From the IMG/VR virus record IMGVR_UViG_3300012920_000150, positions 1-31,474 of that record: DNA of 31,474 nt. The stretch is one strand, 5' to 3'. The position numbers and the translations under genes are program-made. This document shows, in pieces, positions 9,313 through 31,268 of the stretch (position 1 is its first letter; every line of letters starts with the position of its first letter). The DNA is from a virus. Under the pieces are notes generated by a model. The model had not been told where the DNA came from. It searched no databases and worked only from the letters and a program-made list of their open reading frames with translations.

Positions 9313-11031
9313 CTATTGGTTTGCTTCTTCACTTGTTTCTGTGATTGTAATAGAAAAGTCGGGAAACTGATCACTCGTGACAACAGTATCTCCAGTATCT
9401 GTTATTTCAATATTTTGTATGAATTCTCTTGTTAAGTTTCTTGGTGGTGGTGGTGGTGTTCGCTGAACAGCTTGCTCTGTTGCAGTATTTAGTGAGCCTA
9501 TTTGAAAAGGCTTACGAGTGTCAGCTGTAGTAAATTTCCTTGTTTCAAACCATTTCTCAGACATCTCTATTAACTGCTCAGGTGTGGCTTTTTTATCAAG
9601 ATTTTTACGCCAAAACTCTTCTATTTCAGCTACGTGTTGTGCCATATCTACGTTATAACCACTACTTTTATTAGTATTAATAATACCTATACCAAAATAT
9701 TCTTCAAACTCTTTGATTATGGCTTTTTGTGTTTCTACAATCTGCTCGCTGTTTTCGTAGTATCTTCCCATTGCAATATCAATAGTCTTTTCAAACATTT
9801 CTCTGCCTTGGTAAGTTTTAAGCTTATTAAGCTTTTCTTGGCGGGCTTTGTTAAAATCTGTATTATCCTTATCTATGTTTTCTGTTACCCAATCAGAATA
9901 GTCTTTAAAAGCTCTGTTACTGGTTTCAGCTCTAACATTTGTTTGATCAAAGGCTTCGTCAATCTCAGCTTTTAAAATGTTTTGCTCATGGTCAGAAAAA
10001 TTATCCTCACCTCTAACCCCTATTAAATTAGCTTTAGCTGCCTGATAAGCTTCATCGGCAGTGCTATGTTCTCTAACAGCTTTCATAACAAAACCTTTCT
10101 GCTCGCTCTGTAGACGAGCTTCTCTGGTTTCAACTGCTGCCTGATTAAACGCTATGGCTGCTTGTCGTTTCTCACGTAATGAATCCCAATTGGTACTACC
10201 TATGATTAAAGTTGGTTTACCTTTACCTTGTTGTAATGTAAGCTTTGCGGCTGCATCATAAAGGCTAGTGTCTATTTCACCTGTTTCTCCATCAGCAACC
10301 ATGCTTCTTTCAACAGCACTTAAAAGAGCTTGGTTTATTTCTTTTGGTGAACGGCCTTCTGCTTTTAGCGTTTCCCTAAGATTAGACCAAGATTCTTGTG
10401 TGAGGCCGTCTGAACCTAAGGATTCAATTTCAGCGATCATTCGTGTTTGTCTTGCTCCAGCTTCATAGGCTTGGCCTTGCCGACTTACTGCTTCCCCTTG
10501 TTGTGTCAAATAGGGTTGTACTTTCTCTTCAAACTTTGGAGCAAAACCAACACCCTCGTAAACGGTATCATAGCCACTGCTTTCTAACCAAGCAGCTCTT
10601 TTTGTTTTTTCCCATGCGTAGTATGCTGCTGGATCGGTTAGCTGGTCTATACCTGACTTTATTGACTCTGCCTGTAAGTGCGCTTTATATTCACCCTGTG
10701 CTTTTGTTGCCATAGCGATGTTGTACTCTCGCTCTACAGCTTCTCTGCTGGTAAATATACTAAGGTTAGGATTAGCTTCGTCAAACTTCTTAACTTCTCC
10801 TGATCTGTATGCTTCATCTACTGCTCTAGCTTTATCTAACTCGGTAGAGGCATCTGTTAGAGACTTAGTAGCTCCTACAACTTGATTGAGAGCATCAGAC
10901 AGTTGCTGTGCTTGTATAGCTTTTTCTCGGCCTTGACCACTCACAAAGGTATCTACGACTCTATTGGTTTTCTTTTGTGTTTGACCAAAAAGGTTTTTAG
11001 TCTGTACTGTTTGACTAATAGACTTTGCCAT
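9313..11031 (-). CDS. Internal virion protein, gp15-like (ejectosome)
   Basis: At 572 residues it is shorter than T7 gp15 (747) but occupies the same slot between gp14- and gp16-like genes. It is almost wholly helical and charged, rich in Ala, Glu, Gln and Lys, with no membrane segment. This fits the helical tube protein that spans the periplasm during DNA ejection. Near residues 125-170 it has a DPAAYYAWEKTKRAAWLESSG stretch of the kind seen in gp15 homologues. A proline run (TPPPPPR) lies near residue 525 before the C-terminal tail. The gap to the gp14-like stop is one base. The assignment rests mainly on synteny and architecture. Confidence 0.75.
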   Translation of the reverse strand: MAKSISQTVQTKNLFGQTQKKTNRVVDTFVSGQGREKAIQAQQLSDALNQVVGATKSLTDASTELDKARAVDEAYRSGEVKKFDEANPNLSIFTSREAVEREYNIAMATKAQGEYKAHLQAESIKSGIDQLTDPAAYYAWEKTKRAAWLESSGYDTVYEGVGFAPKFEEKVQPYLTQQGEAVSRQGQAYEAGARQTRMIAEIESLGSDGLTQESWSNLRETLKAEGRSPKEINQALLSAVERSMVADGETGEIDTSLYDAAAKLTLQQGKGKPTLIIGSTNWDSLREKRQAAIAFNQAAVETREARLQSEQKGFVMKAVREHSTADEAYQAAKANLIGVRGEDNFSDHEQNILKAEIDEAFDQTNVRAETSNRAFKDYSDWVTENIDKDNTDFNKARQEKLNKLKTYQGREMFEKTIDIAMGRYYENSEQIVETQKAIIKEFEEYFGIGIINTNKSSGYNVDMAQHVAEIEEFWRKNLDKKATPEQLIEMSEKWFETRKFTTADTRKPFQIGSLNTATEQAVQRTPPPPPRNLTREFIQNIEITDTGDTVVTSDQFPDFSITITETSEEANQ

Positions 11032-17192: not shown

Positions 17193-18197
17193 TTAAGGTC
17201 GCTTACCAGTTTTATTCCACTTGTTCATGTACTCTCGTAAGCTTAAGCCAGAAGCCTTCAACTGCTCTCTAGTTACATTAGCTAGTTTCTTGCCTTTATG
17301 CTCAACTGTCTTACTATTGCCTACACCAAATTTACTTTTCTTATATTTTGGATTTATTGGTTTAGGTTTAGGTTTAGGTTTGGGTTTGGGTTTAGGTTTG
17401 GGTTTAGGGTCAGGCTTCTTATTTGCTAGATTAGCCTTCGGGTTTTTAAACTTATACTTTTCCAAACCTTTTTGAGTCTTAAGAACTTTCTTGCTACCTG
17501 CTTCCCTTCTTTCCTTAGAAGACCCTTTAAAATCTCTAGTGTCCCTATTGGTGCTTGCTGCGAAGGCTGCTGGTACACTTGCTGCTCCTGCTACGCCCTT
17601 AATAGTTAAACCTTTTAATCTGTTTCCAAATCTTTTAAGCCTACCTTTTAAACTGGTATCACTTCTATCTATTACGACAGTTTTAGGATTAGGTTTAGCG
17701 TTGGCGGCTTTTTCTTTAGCAGCTTTAGCTCTTGCCTTACCATCTTCAACTACCTTTTTCTTATTAGGAAATGTTTTATTCTCTGCTGCTATTTGACGTT
17801 GCCTAGCAGTTTTCATGTTTTCTCTGATGATTGCCTGACGAGTTTTTACATCTTTCATCTCAGCAGCTTGTTGAGCACGAGTTCCTTGTTTAATACGGCT
17901 CTGTACTTTTGCCTTACTTTCAAGCTTAGCATTGTTTTTATTAGCCTTAGCAATACGCTCTTTCTCTGCTTTACTTGCAGCAGCATCGTGAACTTTCTTT
18001 TGACTAACAGCCTTAGGTTTTGTCTTAGGTCTTCCTCGGCCAGTAGGTTGTTTCTTTGCTGGCTCTTTCATCTTATGCTGTTCAGCTTTTTTCCTAATAT
18101 CTTCTCTTTTTTTAGCGGCTCTGCTTTTCTTCCTTGCTTCAGCTTTCTTTTCTGCTTCTGTCACTGGTTTCTTTCGTAATCTAGGAGCTTTAGCCAT
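17193..18197 (-). CDS. Lysine-rich, histone H1-like protein with Lys-Pro repeat
   Basis: A 334-residue, extremely basic protein placed between portal and scaffold, a position with no counterpart of this kind in T7. Residues 1-165 are Lys/Ala/Arg/Glu-rich helices (such as KKAEARKKSRAAKKRED). A less charged patch follows near residues 195-215 (LTIKGVAGAASVPAAFAAS), then a Lys-Pro run at about residues 260-281 coded by tandem hexamers. The C-terminal end (REQLKASGLSLREYMNKWN) looks like a small folded or docking motif. ATG at 18197 overlaps the portal stop by one base (TAATG). The composition suggests DNA binding, either packaged with the genome or acting in the prohead, but no function is known to me. 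Confidence 0.7.
   Translation of the reverse strand: MAKAPRLRKKPVTEAEKKAEARKKSRAAKKREDIRKKAEQHKMKEPAKKQPTGRGRPKTKPKAVSQKKVHDAAASKAEKERIAKANKNNAKLESKAKVQSRIKQGTRAQQAAEMKDVKTRQAIIRENMKTARQRQIAAENKTFPNKKKVVEDGKARAKAAKEKAANAKPNPKTVVIDRSDTSLKGRLKRFGNRLKGLTIKGVAGAASVPAAFAASTNRDTRDFKGSSKERREAGSKKVLKTQKGLEKYKFKNPKANLANKKPDPKPKPKPKPKPKPKPKPINPKYKKSKFGVGNSKTVEHKGKKLANVTREQLKASGLSLREYMNKWNKTGKRP
17361..17408 (+). repeat. Tandem hexamer repeat TTTRGG (eight units)
   Basis: Eight consecutive six-base units, TTTAGG or TTTGGG, lie on the plus strand. Read on the minus strand they code Pro-Lys pairs (CCT/CCC AAA) in the Lys-rich protein. Runs of GG or GGG spaced by TTT on the template strand could fold as a G-quadruplex and are prone to copy-number slippage. 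The look is telomere-like, but the repeat is coding. Confidence 0.9.
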
Positions 18198-23848: not shown

Positions 23849-24014
23849 CCCCCATTATTTTTTTAAACTCTTTTTCATCCATACGTTCCATCATTAGCCC
23901 CAACTTTGCTAACCTATATTCTATCAAGGATTGTCCTAACCACCTGATACCCAAGGATATACTAACAAAAGCAAAACTAACAACGAGGATGATATTAAGT
24001 ATGTTGTATTCCAT
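23832..24014 (-). CDS. Small membrane protein (60 aa)
   Basis: From ATG at 24014 it encodes 60 residues: MEYNILNIILVVSFAFVSIS begins one strong N-terminal transmembrane helix (about residues 5-28). A short cytoplasmic tail follows, rich in Met, Lys and acidic residues (MMERMDEKEFKKIMGDEDDR). The start has an excellent GAGGTG ribosome site; the open frame upstream to 24137 lies inside the nuclease gene and is ignored. It overlaps both neighbours. Small membrane proteins in this region of T7-like phages often affect host functions or superinfection; none is recognised here. Confidence 0.65.
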   Translation of the reverse strand: MEYNILNIILVVSFAFVSISLGIRWLGQSLIEYRLAKLGLMMERMDEKEFKKIMGDEDDR

Positions 24015-24411
24015 CGTCACCTCTTGTGTGATGTTTTTGAAAACGCATCTTTCTAGTCTTAGCGTCAAAGACAATGTATTGGACACCCATTTCTTTTTGA
24101 AGCTTAGTCCTACCACTAGCGTTAGTTGTATAATCACTACTGTTAGACTTCACATCAAATAGGTATACTTCATTGTCTTTAATACCTACCATATCAACAG
24201 CGCCTGTTGACCCTGCATTGTAGAAGACTTCAAAGCCTTCATCCCATAACCATGTAATTGCATATAGTTCTGCAAGGTCACCTATCCTACTCTTATCAGT
24301 GAGTGTCTGCCCAACTCGTTCCGATTTGATATTCGGAGTCAAGCGGACATTTGAAGTTAAAAGTTCGCTCTGTTTCTTTAATGGCCTCTTTAGTGATTGC
24401 ACCAATAGCAT
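23995..24411 (-). CDS. PD-(D/E)XK nuclease-like protein overlapping the DNA polymerase end
   Basis: Counted from ATG at 24411 (138 residues), the core is SRIGDLAELYAITWLWDEGF, then STGAVDMVGIK and YLFDVKSN. This gives Glu48, Asp73 and Asp86-x-Lys88, the PD-(D/E)XK arrangement of small resolvase-like or restriction-like nucleases. The core begins right after the polymerase stop, but no ATG, GTG or TTG exists there. The start must lie inside the polymerase gene: 24411 (AAGGG about eight bases upstream) or 24447, giving overlaps of 116 or 152 bases. The N-terminal 35 residues are basic and may be mere overlap. A likely role is recombination or DNA-end processing. Confidence 0.7.
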   Translation of the reverse strand: MLLVQSLKRPLKKQSELLTSNVRLTPNIKSERVGQTLTDKSRIGDLAELYAITWLWDEGFEVFYNAGSTGAVDMVGIKDNEVYLFDVKSNSSDYTTNASGRTKLQKEMGVQYIVFDAKTRKMRFQKHHTRGDDGIQHT

Positions 24412-26020
24412 CCTCAAGCCCTTTTTTAACCAAGATTTGAACTTCATCGTGTACAAACGCCACTATCGAAACTTCTTCGTTAGTGTAGCCTTTACTTCTT
24501 ATCATATTTTCTACAGTTGCATACCACTTCTTACAAATGATAGCCCCTGCTGATTGAAGTAATGTATTCAACGCTGCATGGGGGTGACGGATAGGTATAA
24601 GCCTACCGTCTAAACCGTTAATAAACTTATCCCCTTGCTGCTGTTCTAATCTCATGTTTAGAGCTTCTGTTAGTTTCTTTAACGCAGGAGTCTTAGCTAG
24701 AAAGCGTTTCTTAATCTGGCCTCCCTCCTTTGCACCCTTGCCAATGATCTGGCCTATCTTCTCGTTACCTGCACCGTACAAAAAGCCGTAAATAAATGTC
24801 TTAGCTTGAGGTCGTGTATCAAGCCCTGCCGCTTCTTGGTTGGCGGTGTGTATATCACCTTCAAGTATCTCTTTACCATACTTACCACCATCATATCGGT
24901 TCATGTAGTGTGCTAGACACCGCAACTCAAGTCCGCTTGCGTCTGCTCCAAGCAATGAGTAACCTTCTGGGGCGTGGAACAACTCCCTACATTCCTTGCC
25001 AAAAGCTGCTCCTGTTGATGGGACTTGTGCCACGTTAGGGTCGCTATGTGTACAGCGAGAAGTGACAGCACCCATGTGGTTAACACGCCCATGAATACGG
25101 CCTTCTTTTTCGAGCTTAAGCCACGCTTGTTTCCCATTTCCTAATTGTCCTAATCTTTTGTTCAACATTAAATACTCTGTCAGTAGACGAGCTTCGGGCA
25201 TATCAATTCCTGCCAGAATTTTTTCGTCAATTTTTGGGTCACCTGACGGAGTAAACTCTTTTGGCTTCCAACCTTTCTTCTGTAGTCTGTCTGCTATCTG
25301 TTGTCTAGATGCAGGGTTGAATGGAATAACTTTCGTTTTCGTTTTCAACTCGACTATCGTTGGAGGTAGGTTATCAACCAACTCTGTCTCTATCTCTTGC
25401 TTACGTGCTGATAGTTTCGTGTAAAGCTGTTGTGCCTTATCGACATCAAAGGGAAACCCTGTGTGTTGCTGCTTGATGAGAAGTCGGTTCATCTCATGCT
25501 CTAGCTGCATCGGTTCTTCAGGGTAGTTCTTTTGCTTTATCAACTCATACAGCTTGACGTTCAACGCTACGTCTTGTACGCAATACTCAAGCATCTCTGG
25601 CGTGTAATGCTCCCACGCACCGTCATGCTCTCCGTAATCACCTTTGTTAAACTTTAAGCGTTGTCCCCAAGCCTTAAGAGAGTGCGAACCAATTAAATTA
25701 CTATCAACAGTACGTTTAAGTAAGTCTTTCTCTTTGAGGTTAGGCCATATCAACCTTGATGCAACAAGTGTGTCGTATACTTGTCCATAGTAGTCGAAGT
25801 CATAGAGCTTTTTTAACACAGGCAGGTCGTAAGCCATGATGTTGTGACCACCAATAACCCCACCATAAGACTCTTGTTCCTTTAAAATATCTAATGCGAC
25901 ATCTAGTTGTGTTGGGTCGAACCTCCAGACATTGCCTGAGTTAGTATCCTGCATCACAATACAGTGAACAGCCGTCACGTCATCAAGTAAGTTGTCTGCT
26001 TCTAAATCAAATATAATCAT
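24296..26020 (-). CDS. DNA polymerase, T7 gp5-like (family A) without thioredoxin-binding insertion
   Basis: A 574-residue replicative polymerase (T7 gp5 is 704). The 3'-5' exonuclease residues are present: Asp5 and Glu7 (FDLEAD), Asp65 (AYDLP), Asp150 (CVQDV). Polymerase motif A is GADASGLELRCLAHYM (Asp360), motif B RPQAKTFIYGFLYG (Lys407, Tyr411) and motif C VHDE (Asp525). Between residues 212 and 233 there is only a short linker where T7 has the roughly 75-residue thioredoxin-binding loop. Processivity must therefore come from another source. The gene follows primase-helicase and the 54-residue gene, and its end overlaps the nuclease gene. ATG at 26020 is preceded by GAGAGGG. Confidence 0.95.
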   Translation of the reverse strand: MIIFDLEADNLLDDVTAVHCIVMQDTNSGNVWRFDPTQLDVALDILKEQESYGGVIGGHNIMAYDLPVLKKLYDFDYYGQVYDTLVASRLIWPNLKEKDLLKRTVDSNLIGSHSLKAWGQRLKFNKGDYGEHDGAWEHYTPEMLEYCVQDVALNVKLYELIKQKNYPEEPMQLEHEMNRLLIKQQHTGFPFDVDKAQQLYTKLSARKQEIETELVDNLPPTIVELKTKTKVIPFNPASRQQIADRLQKKGWKPKEFTPSGDPKIDEKILAGIDMPEARLLTEYLMLNKRLGQLGNGKQAWLKLEKEGRIHGRVNHMGAVTSRCTHSDPNVAQVPSTGAAFGKECRELFHAPEGYSLLGADASGLELRCLAHYMNRYDGGKYGKEILEGDIHTANQEAAGLDTRPQAKTFIYGFLYGAGNEKIGQIIGKGAKEGGQIKKRFLAKTPALKKLTEALNMRLEQQQGDKFINGLDGRLIPIRHPHAALNTLLQSAGAIICKKWYATVENMIRSKGYTNEEVSIVAFVHDEVQILVKKGLEDAIGAITKEAIKETERTFNFKCPLDSEYQIGTSWADTH

Positions 26021-28824: not shown

Positions 28825-30489
28825 TTAGGCGAAAAAATAGTCACTCCGTAACACTTCATTTAAGTCAAGGTCTCCTTTCTCTGGTGGTTGTGGAATAACC
28901 ACATCATTCGGTAACGTGGTTACTGCGGATTCGTAGATACTGAGAAGTACGTCATTGTCTTGATATAGTTTGACAAAAGCCTCTCGTAATCTCTTGTTTA
29001 ATAACGGCATATTGGTGCTGTGTGTAGCGTATGAGTCATGCACCATTGCAAAGTCAATTATACCATCCTTGAGACACTCATGTACAGTCATGGTCAAAGC
29101 TGCTGCATCAAGTGAATGGACAAAGTTAGGGCTAGCTCCTGACAGAACCTTACGTTTGTCTATGGTGTCCATGATAGCCTCGTTGTAGCTTAGCTGAATT
29201 ATTGACCCACTGATATGTGACTTCACCCTTCTCTTTCTGTTCTCTTTGTAGTCTTGTCTGACAACTAAGTTAGTCGGTGTAGTCCAAGAGAATATAAAAC
29301 CATTCTCAACATACAGCTTAGCTATCTCCTTGATATAATTCATAGCACTAAATGCTGAGACAATGACTTCGCCTATCGCTTGCCATACAAAGCCTGAAAG
29401 GTAAAACGATGGTTGGAAAAACTCATCATTCCAAGGGTTGTTTCCTTTACATTTCTCCTCCAGAGCCTCCTTGATGTACTCCCTACAGGCATGACGAGTG
29501 CCACTGTAAGGTACGATCATCACTGAACGCTTGGTGAGTTTACGACAAATGCCAACTTGTAACAGTTGCCTAGCCATTGGATCGCTTTGTTGCTCTAGTA
29601 ACTTGGTTGTTCTTCGAGCAACATCAGCATAAATATCCTGAGGCTCATCACTAGGGGTCAGATTAACCGCACGACCCCCTTCAGAGTCCCTGAGCATCGC
29701 TGAGAGGTGCTGTAATCCATTACATGATCCATCACTAGCGCAAGGCAAACGTGTCTCATATGGCTCTCCAAAGTCTCTCAGACGTACCTCATTATACTTT
29801 GCCCACTCAGCACACCATGCCAGTGCTTGCCAAGGTTTGTCAGCCTCTTGCCACCACTTACATTCATAAGGGTTATTATAAACAGCAACAGCATTTTCTA
29901 TATTCATATATGCCCACATCTCACGCTCTTCTAGGCTCACCTTGTCCACTCCGAACACATTAGCGCCATGTATGGCTAACCATTGTGCATCTCCGTCATG
30001 GAGAATGGTAGCTGGTCGAGAGAACTCTAGTAGCGCCTTAGAATAATCAGCGTTCTGAGGAGACAGGAACGACTCAACAGGGTACTTACGGCCTCTGAAG
30101 TCACACTGCCACACGAACCAGAAATTGTCCATGTTAGCGTATTCTTCTGCGAGCTGTAATGTACGCTCCACTTGAATACGTTTAGACAGGTTCTTGGCAT
30201 TCTCAGTATGGATAGTGTTACGTAAGGTTTTGAACTCCTTAAACTTTTTTGATTGTTCTTCGTTGAGATGACGAGGCTCAACACTAAAAGGATAGTTAGG
30301 TAATGCTAGGTTATCCCTTGATGGCAACCCCTCCCACCTCTCTCCGCTTTCCCAACAAGTGCGTAGTGTTTCCAAAACAAACTTGTTCACTCTCCAAGGT
30401 GTACGTTGTAATGCGTTTACACATTCGTACTCAAGGGAGTTATCACGGTTGTTGTGATCCTCGACAAATTGTTTTAAGTCGTCTCTCAT
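28825..30489 (-). CDS. T7-type RNA polymerase, C-terminal (catalytic) part of a split gene
   Basis: This 554-residue ORF covers T7 RNA polymerase from about residue 285 to the end. All catalytic residues are present: Asp253 (ASDGSCNGLQH, T7 Asp537), Lys320 and Tyr328 (RKLTKRSVMIVPYSG, T7 Lys631 and Tyr639) and Asp485 (MVHDSY, T7 Asp812). The Gly after the motif B Tyr is Ser-Gly here. The end SDYFFA keeps the C-terminal foot. ATG at 30489 overlaps the TGA of the upstream half (ATGA) in the -1 frame. Either two separate chains assemble, or a frameshift or sequence error joins them. The enzyme should read the 14-base promoters seen downstream. Confidence 0.92.
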   Translation of the reverse strand: MRDDLKQFVEDHNNRDNSLEYECVNALQRTPWRVNKFVLETLRTCWESGERWEGLPSRDNLALPNYPFSVEPRHLNEEQSKKFKEFKTLRNTIHTENAKNLSKRIQVERTLQLAEEYANMDNFWFVWQCDFRGRKYPVESFLSPQNADYSKALLEFSRPATILHDGDAQWLAIHGANVFGVDKVSLEEREMWAYMNIENAVAVYNNPYECKWWQEADKPWQALAWCAEWAKYNEVRLRDFGEPYETRLPCASDGSCNGLQHLSAMLRDSEGGRAVNLTPSDEPQDIYADVARRTTKLLEQQSDPMARQLLQVGICRKLTKRSVMIVPYSGTRHACREYIKEALEEKCKGNNPWNDEFFQPSFYLSGFVWQAIGEVIVSAFSAMNYIKEIAKLYVENGFIFSWTTPTNLVVRQDYKENRKRRVKSHISGSIIQLSYNEAIMDTIDKRKVLSGASPNFVHSLDAAALTMTVHECLKDGIIDFAMVHDSYATHSTNMPLLNKRLREAFVKLYQDNDVLLSIYESAVTTLPNDVVIPQPPEKGDLDLNEVLRSDYFFA

Positions 30490-31268
30490 AGTCCATGTAT
30501 CCTCATAAAAGGTTTCTTGTTGATATGTTCAGAGTAGTAACCACCACCATAAAAAGAATCCCAATCTTTAGGTTCAATAATGCAAGGAGAATAACGTGGT
30601 AGGTTATTCATATTAGCGTTGTTAAATGCCTCAATCCAATCAAGAGTCTCATCAGTAGGGTCAAGGTACGCCACTACTTTTTTCCTAGAATATTTTTTCC
30701 TAACTTTAACAATACCAGTATGCTCAATAATAAGGTTAATCATAAACAAACCAACTTTCATACGATCAGTCTTAGACCATTCGCCTATCTCAATGCCATC
30801 AGACTTCATCTTATGGTTAAGGCCATGACGCTTGTGGTCAAAGCCTTTGTCAGACTTCTTGTTAGCCAGTTTAATCACATTACGAGCTACCTCTGGATCT
30901 TCTTCTATCCACTTGTCCAGCTTGTCCTGAGTCTCTATCTGCTTACCAACATAGAGTGCTACAGCGACCAACCTGCTTACAGATGCAACATGATCCACCA
31001 CAGACAGTAACGACAAGAAGCAAGCCGATGCAGGGTTGACGCTGCTAATTAACTTGTGAACCCTATCGTTATTACCTCTTGGTTTTTTTAATGCTTCCGT
31101 CAAAGCATCAGTCAAGGGTTCACACACTCCCGATATTATTCTCCTACCGTGTTTAGTTTTAGACTCCAAGTTTTTAGCCTGAAGATCATCTTTTTGTTTT
31201 ATATACCTGTCTATTCCCGATTGAACCATGCGATATTCCAGCTCAATCTGTTCCTCTATTGTAGCCAT
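30486..31268 (-). CDS. T7-type RNA polymerase, N-terminal part of a split gene
   Basis: The 260-residue ORF corresponds to the N-terminal promoter- and RNA-binding domain of T7 RNA polymerase (about residues 1-275). Recognisable parts are EALKKPRG and SVNPASACFLSLLSVVD, then the GFDHKRHGLNHKMKSDGIEI region, IEHTGIVKVRKK, and near the end YSPCIIEPKDWDSFYGGGYY, which matches the T7 PCVVPPKPW...GGGYW segment. The last residues KKPFMRIHGL still resemble T7 RPLALVRTH, so conservation reaches almost to the stop. The stop TGA overlaps the ATG of the catalytic half. ATG at 31268 has a GAGGG site and follows the small upstream gene by two bases. Confidence 0.85.
   Translation of the reverse strand: MATIEEQIELEYRMVQSGIDRYIKQKDDLQAKNLESKTKHGRRIISGVCEPLTDALTEALKKPRGNNDRVHKLISSVNPASACFLSLLSVVDHVASVSRLVAVALYVGKQIETQDKLDKWIEEDPEVARNVIKLANKKSDKGFDHKRHGLNHKMKSDGIEIGEWSKTDRMKVGLFMINLIIEHTGIVKVRKKYSRKKVVAYLDPTDETLDWIEAFNNANMNNLPRYSPCIIEPKDWDSFYGGGYYSEHINKKPFMRIHGL

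Follow-up and report, generated by a model that had tools for sequence, protein, structure and literature searches.

T7-type RNA polymerase is the textbook example of an enzyme made of one chain. Departures from this plan have been described in phages and in the laboratory. RNAPII of phage N4 (Schitoviridae), composed of gp15 and gp16, is a natural heterodimer of the T7-like superfamily and has been purified as such (PMC4496689). For the pelagiphages, Chen et al. 2019 reported RNA polymerases 'fragmented into two parts', and not recently, throughout HTVC019Pvirus group III with the sole exception of HTVC011P, and proposed neither a mechanism nor a function (PMC6811365). The T7 enzyme itself has been divided by design: a polymerase split between residues 301 and 302 is active when fused light-dimerising domains join the fragments (PMC13304687), and a fragmented T7 RNA polymerase with 'resource allocator' fragments has also been described (PMC4299498). 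Here, we analyse a polymerase locus from an uncultured phage which, in our assessment, very probably encodes a natural, working two-chain T7-type RNA polymerase produced by stop-start coupling.

Gene layout and domain content of the locus

The window, that is, the whole stretch of DNA analysed, comes from an uncultured T7-like phage, represented in IMG/VR by this 31.5-kb fragment. The genes annotated in it are T7-like, and include genes for a gp2.5-like SSB, an endonuclease, a primase-helicase, Pol A, an exonuclease, MazG and RNR, as well as structural genes (head-tail connector, capsid and tail). The polymerase is encoded on the minus strand by an N-chain gene (30486..31268; 260 aa; TGA stop at 30488-30486), which covers the N-terminal domain (approximately T7 residues 34-300), and a C-chain gene (28825..30489; 554 aa; ATG at 30489-30487), which covers thumb, palm, fingers and all catalytic residues. 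The stop of the former and the start of the latter are combined in an ATGA overlap (30486..30489, minus strand), and C is read in -1 relative to N. A GAGG on the same strand (30501..30504), a likely internal Shine-Dalgarno sequence for the C chain, lies within the last N-gene codons, 11 nt before the C start. The original prediction had described two ORFs of 260 and 554 aa overlapping by ATGA in the -1 relation, with a TTTT at 30510-30507; the coordinates are confirmed and the TTTT is present. Elsewhere in the window, two long ORFs of the structural module (17193-18197 and 9313-11031; 334 and 572 aa, respectively) have no PHROG match at 1e-3, and a 153-aa ORF (23995-24456), which matches the unknown PHROG 5018 (1e-6), extends about 160 nt into the 3' end of the DNA polymerase gene (24296-26020) and is read in a different frame.

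Homology to the T7-like superfamily spans both of its domains: the N part matches Pfam RPOL_N (PF14700, 2.9e-18) and, in profile comparison with T7 RNA polymerase chains, residues 34-300, and the C part matches RNA_pol (PF00940, 3.7e-105). Because the N and C parts cover positions 2-266 and 271-816 of PHROG 414 (816 aa), nothing is lost from the polymerase, as had been surmised at the outset. The C-chain residues then singled out as catalytic, D253, K320, Y328 and D485, align with T7 D537, K631, Y639 and D812. The catalytic residues of the superfamily (D537, K631, Y639 and H811/D812) and the DxxGR motif are all present, the latter in the C chain, and those catalytic residues checked are invariant in 166-169 of the 169 members of the clade to which the window belongs. 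Chain lengths are tight across this clade (N 255-265 aa, C 549-558 aa; median sum 811 aa), and fused relatives match them. The cut, previously placed at T7 residues 275-285, aligns instead with T7 H300/S301; it falls in the linker that joins the N-terminal domain to the thumb and removes no more than a peptide bond there, around T7 residue 300. The enzyme departs from the one-chain plan of the superfamily, two ORFs being found in each clade member that shows the junction. Judged by its domains and motifs, the polymerase belongs to the T7-like ('single-subunit type') superfamily, of which one chain is only a nominal feature, N4 RNAPII being accepted without it.

Structures were predicted with AF2 for the isolated chains, N and C each alone. 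The C-chain model (pLDDT 89) has the T7 RNA polymerase fold (TM 0.73-0.86, Foldseek), and the N-chain model (pLDDT 85) likewise finds its best Foldseek matches in T7 RNA polymerase, with TM values mostly of 0.71-0.82 against elongation complexes and of 0.47 against the promoter complex 1cez. According to these models, the N chain retains the N-domain fold, and the isolated N chain is predicted to be in the elongation-state fold, which is compatible with, although no proof of, easier switching between states.

Junctions, selection and origin of the split

Four scans of viral contigs gave approximately 170 loci of the window clade, a mostly marine virus lineage, with 127 unique junctions once identical ones were removed. 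Every locus that shows the junction is split and none is fused, in 127 distinct junction sequences and down to about 48% identity in the C part. Whether the split recurs in homologues had been suggested as a check, and the answer is clear: 82 of the 127 junctions have a 4-nt overlap (ATGA, TTGA or GTGA), which is the commonest arrangement, 23 have a 1-nt overlap (TAATG or TGATG), and the remainder have other small overlaps or gaps or, in six cases, 211-975 nt between the halves. The frame of C relative to N is -1 in 112 junctions, 0 in 10 and +1 in 5. The wide gaps contain whole unrelated genes, namely ThyX (PF02511, 1e-42; L136:1729-2421), a C5 DNA methylase (PF00145, 3e-14; L104:270-1208) and small ORFs (L102:2525-3504, L010:2693-2997, L112:2204-2416 and in L110). 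The polymerases of L010 and L102 are nearly identical (C chains 98%), yet their inserted genes differ. At one locus (L009:575-640) the junction is duplicated: between the N stop and the C start lies an ORF of 8 codons (MKMRVHRL), which has an ATGA of its own. The space between the two polymerase genes is a landing place for other genes, such as those named above, the small unknown ORFs included.

Of 111 overlapping junctions, about 80 have a GAGG 5-11 nt ahead of the C start. Most of it is encoded by the last conserved Arg codon of the N gene, which is AGG in 72 of 108 cases (67%), compared with 22% elsewhere in the N gene, a difference whose p value is indicative only, as the sequences are related. 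These patterns are suggestive of a Shine-Dalgarno sequence for the C chain concealed within the final codons of the N gene. Codon-position entropy around the junction was only weakly informative. Further upstream, a tRNA-Leu (TAA) shortly precedes the N gene in L010 (640-1732), L102, L110, L112, L108 and L144, and a tRNA-Leu (TAG) does so in HTVC025P (L146). In L010 and HTVC025P it is adjoined by a tyrosine integrase, a gene arrangement that suggests lysogeny and a tRNA-Leu attachment site. No integrase match was obtained in G002 and G003, the long relatives closest to the window.

Close pairs have dN/dS values of 0.02-0.075 in N and 0.02-0.10 in C, pointing to strong purifying selection on both halves (omega 0.02-0.10), and the protein distances of the two chains are correlated (r = 0.89; Mantel 0/999). 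Each genome has only one RNA_pol catalytic domain, and a search for a second intact RNA polymerase elsewhere in the genome found none. Promoter-specific transcription is a trait of the superfamily; a 14-mer search of intergenic regions for a phage promoter did not exceed the shuffled control for the window or a 42-kb relative, and in a 41.5-kb relative yielded only a repeated hairpin. The hairpin-like repeat of the latter (G003; L220-L222), TGCCTCGGACATTCCGAGG, occurs in at least five or six of its intergenic regions and is not among the recurring words of the window or of G002.

A maximum-likelihood tree of the C part recovers the window clade with 100/100 support and places it as sister to the fused polymerases L200, L202 and L204 (100/99). 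A second split group consists of the pelagiphage genera Fussvirus, Stopavirus and Chosvirus, with the fused HTVC011P nested inside. A single origin of all splits was considered and rejected (one split clade, AU p = 0.0018), and it follows from this test and the tree that the linker was cut on at least two occasions, in almost the same position. HTVC011P, whose uninterrupted polymerase (L150:1535-4177) lies within an otherwise split pelagiphage group, represents either a natural re-fusion or a group that was split more than once. Relatives in bacterial genomes comprise 51 prophage loci, none of them split; since all of the approximately 41 that show both parts are fused, splits are rare outside the two clades in this survey. 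The phage collection searched held no cultured member of the window clade, the best C-part identity being 41%.

A probable two-chain enzyme and competing readings

We infer that the two genes are coupled in translation and that their products assemble into an active polymerase. In the proposed model, the N and C genes belong to one operon, and the ribosome would terminate the N chain at the TGA and start the C chain at the overlapping ATG, aided by the Shine-Dalgarno-like GAGG near the end of the N gene. As the promoter-binding and RNA-exit N-terminal domain, the N chain would then assemble non-covalently with the C chain, which would supply thumb, palm and fingers, the active site and the specificity loop, to form the phage polymerase. 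Such a two-chain enzyme was one of several options in the original prediction, and is the one favoured here, all close relatives being split, in several arrangements.

The other options fared differently. Programmed -1 frameshifting, which would fuse the ORFs into one 90-kDa polymerase, would suit the 112 of 127 junctions, including that of the window, in which C is -1 to N, as well as a -1 frame that is open for about 13 codons upstream, and for the window taken by itself some fused product might arise in small amounts through -1 shifting at a low level. It cannot, however, account for the whole genes that separate the halves in L104, L136, L102, L010, L110 and L112, for the 15 junctions in which C either shares the frame of N (behind a stop) or is in +1, or for the two successive ATGA units of L009; moreover, an X_XXY_YYZ slippery heptamer lies within the shift window in just 1 of 170 loci and the TTTT is unconserved (L006, L007). 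On these comparisons frameshifting is refuted for the clade, and we give it very little weight overall. A recent inactivating mutation, or a sequencing or assembly error, in an intact gene could produce such a layout in one genome through a single-base change, but is negligible as an explanation of 127 distinct junctions from independent assemblies, in a split clade that has 100/100 support, is deeply divergent and shows very low dN/dS for N and C alike. Because the junctions vary, contain inserted genes and show three frame relations, frameshift, error and recent decay are excluded as general explanations. Intact close relatives or a one-base error had been named as findings that would speak against a split enzyme; the opposite was found, every close relative being split.

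The genes found between the halves in some relatives might also recall a self-splicing intron or a split intein, joining the halves after transcription or after translation. The 4-nt or 1-nt overlaps of most genomes leave no room for such an element, which is excluded at those junctions, an Rfam search for introns gave no match in ten sources, and the halves end and begin with native polymerase residues, intein sequence being absent; we consider the chance of this explanation minimal. It is also highly improbable that the C chain alone is the polymerase, with the N chain in another role or as an optional regulator. The catalytic domain and the specificity loop do both reside in the C chain, but the N chain keeps the N-domain fold in the predicted structure, is under selection as strong as that on the C chain and co-diverges with it. 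Within the two-chain reading, the cut itself may be functional rather than a neutral fission of the operon, with the N chain a dissociable, sigma-like initiation subunit, although we think this unlikely. Such an N chain would bind the promoter together with the C chain and refold or leave towards elongation, its supply setting the amount of active polymerase, a scheme that we regard as equally doubtful. If it were true, the independent cutting of this linker in two lineages of phages would amount to convergent evolution of a two-part T7-type enzyme.

Comparison with natural and engineered split polymerases

Our literature search for an earlier description of the window clade returned the pelagiphage group III remark alone, a published remark confined to one pelagiphage group with a 'fragmented' polymerase. 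Evolution has cut the T7-type polymerase at the engineers' linker at least twice independently, and the cut has been kept across a large and diverse phage clade. This clade offers more than 100 natural two-piece polymerases with which the N-terminal domain in initiation can be tested, and is also a source for building split transcription switches. For annotators, it is a warning that such loci are not to be treated as frameshifts.

The fused polymerases of L200, L202, L204, Rhizobium phage Pasto, Vibrio phage 1.204.O and T7 share domain order, motifs and total length (approximately 810-880 aa) with the window polymerase, but are encoded by one uninterrupted ORF. N4 RNAPII, like the window polymerase, has two chains, those of the latter being known here from gene layout. 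It is cut after DxxGR, between T7 residues ~452 and 459, so that gp15 comprises the N domain, thumb and DxxGR, whereas in the window clade, cut at 300/301, the whole catalytic domain resides in the C chain; N4 RNAPII is also truncated (673 aa), acts with gp1/gp2 and is the partner of a giant virion RNA polymerase. The polymerase of pelagiphage group III (Fussvirus, Stopavirus and Chosvirus KM23C739) is likewise a two-gene T7-like enzyme, cut at around T7 residue 300, with two small genes between the halves in HTVC025P. It nevertheless represents a separate lineage (35-37% identity in the C part), whose split is, by the AU test above, not of common descent with that of the window clade. Its junction peptide differs as well, the N part being extended by about 20 residues and the overlaps measuring 20-32 nt, and the group includes the fused HTVC011P, whereas no fused member is found among the window-clade junctions in view. 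The engineered split T7 RNA polymerase is cut within about 1 residue of the natural site, and its activity at 301/302 when the fragments are brought together bears out the earlier appeal to laboratory split chains (PMC13304687), although the 302 version is a construct with added dimerisers and the natural polymerase has none. The window clade is thus a third, large and independent variant of natural two-chain T7-like RNA polymerase, besides N4 RNAPII and pelagiphage group III, and one that most likely relies on stop-start-coupled translation and non-covalent assembly.
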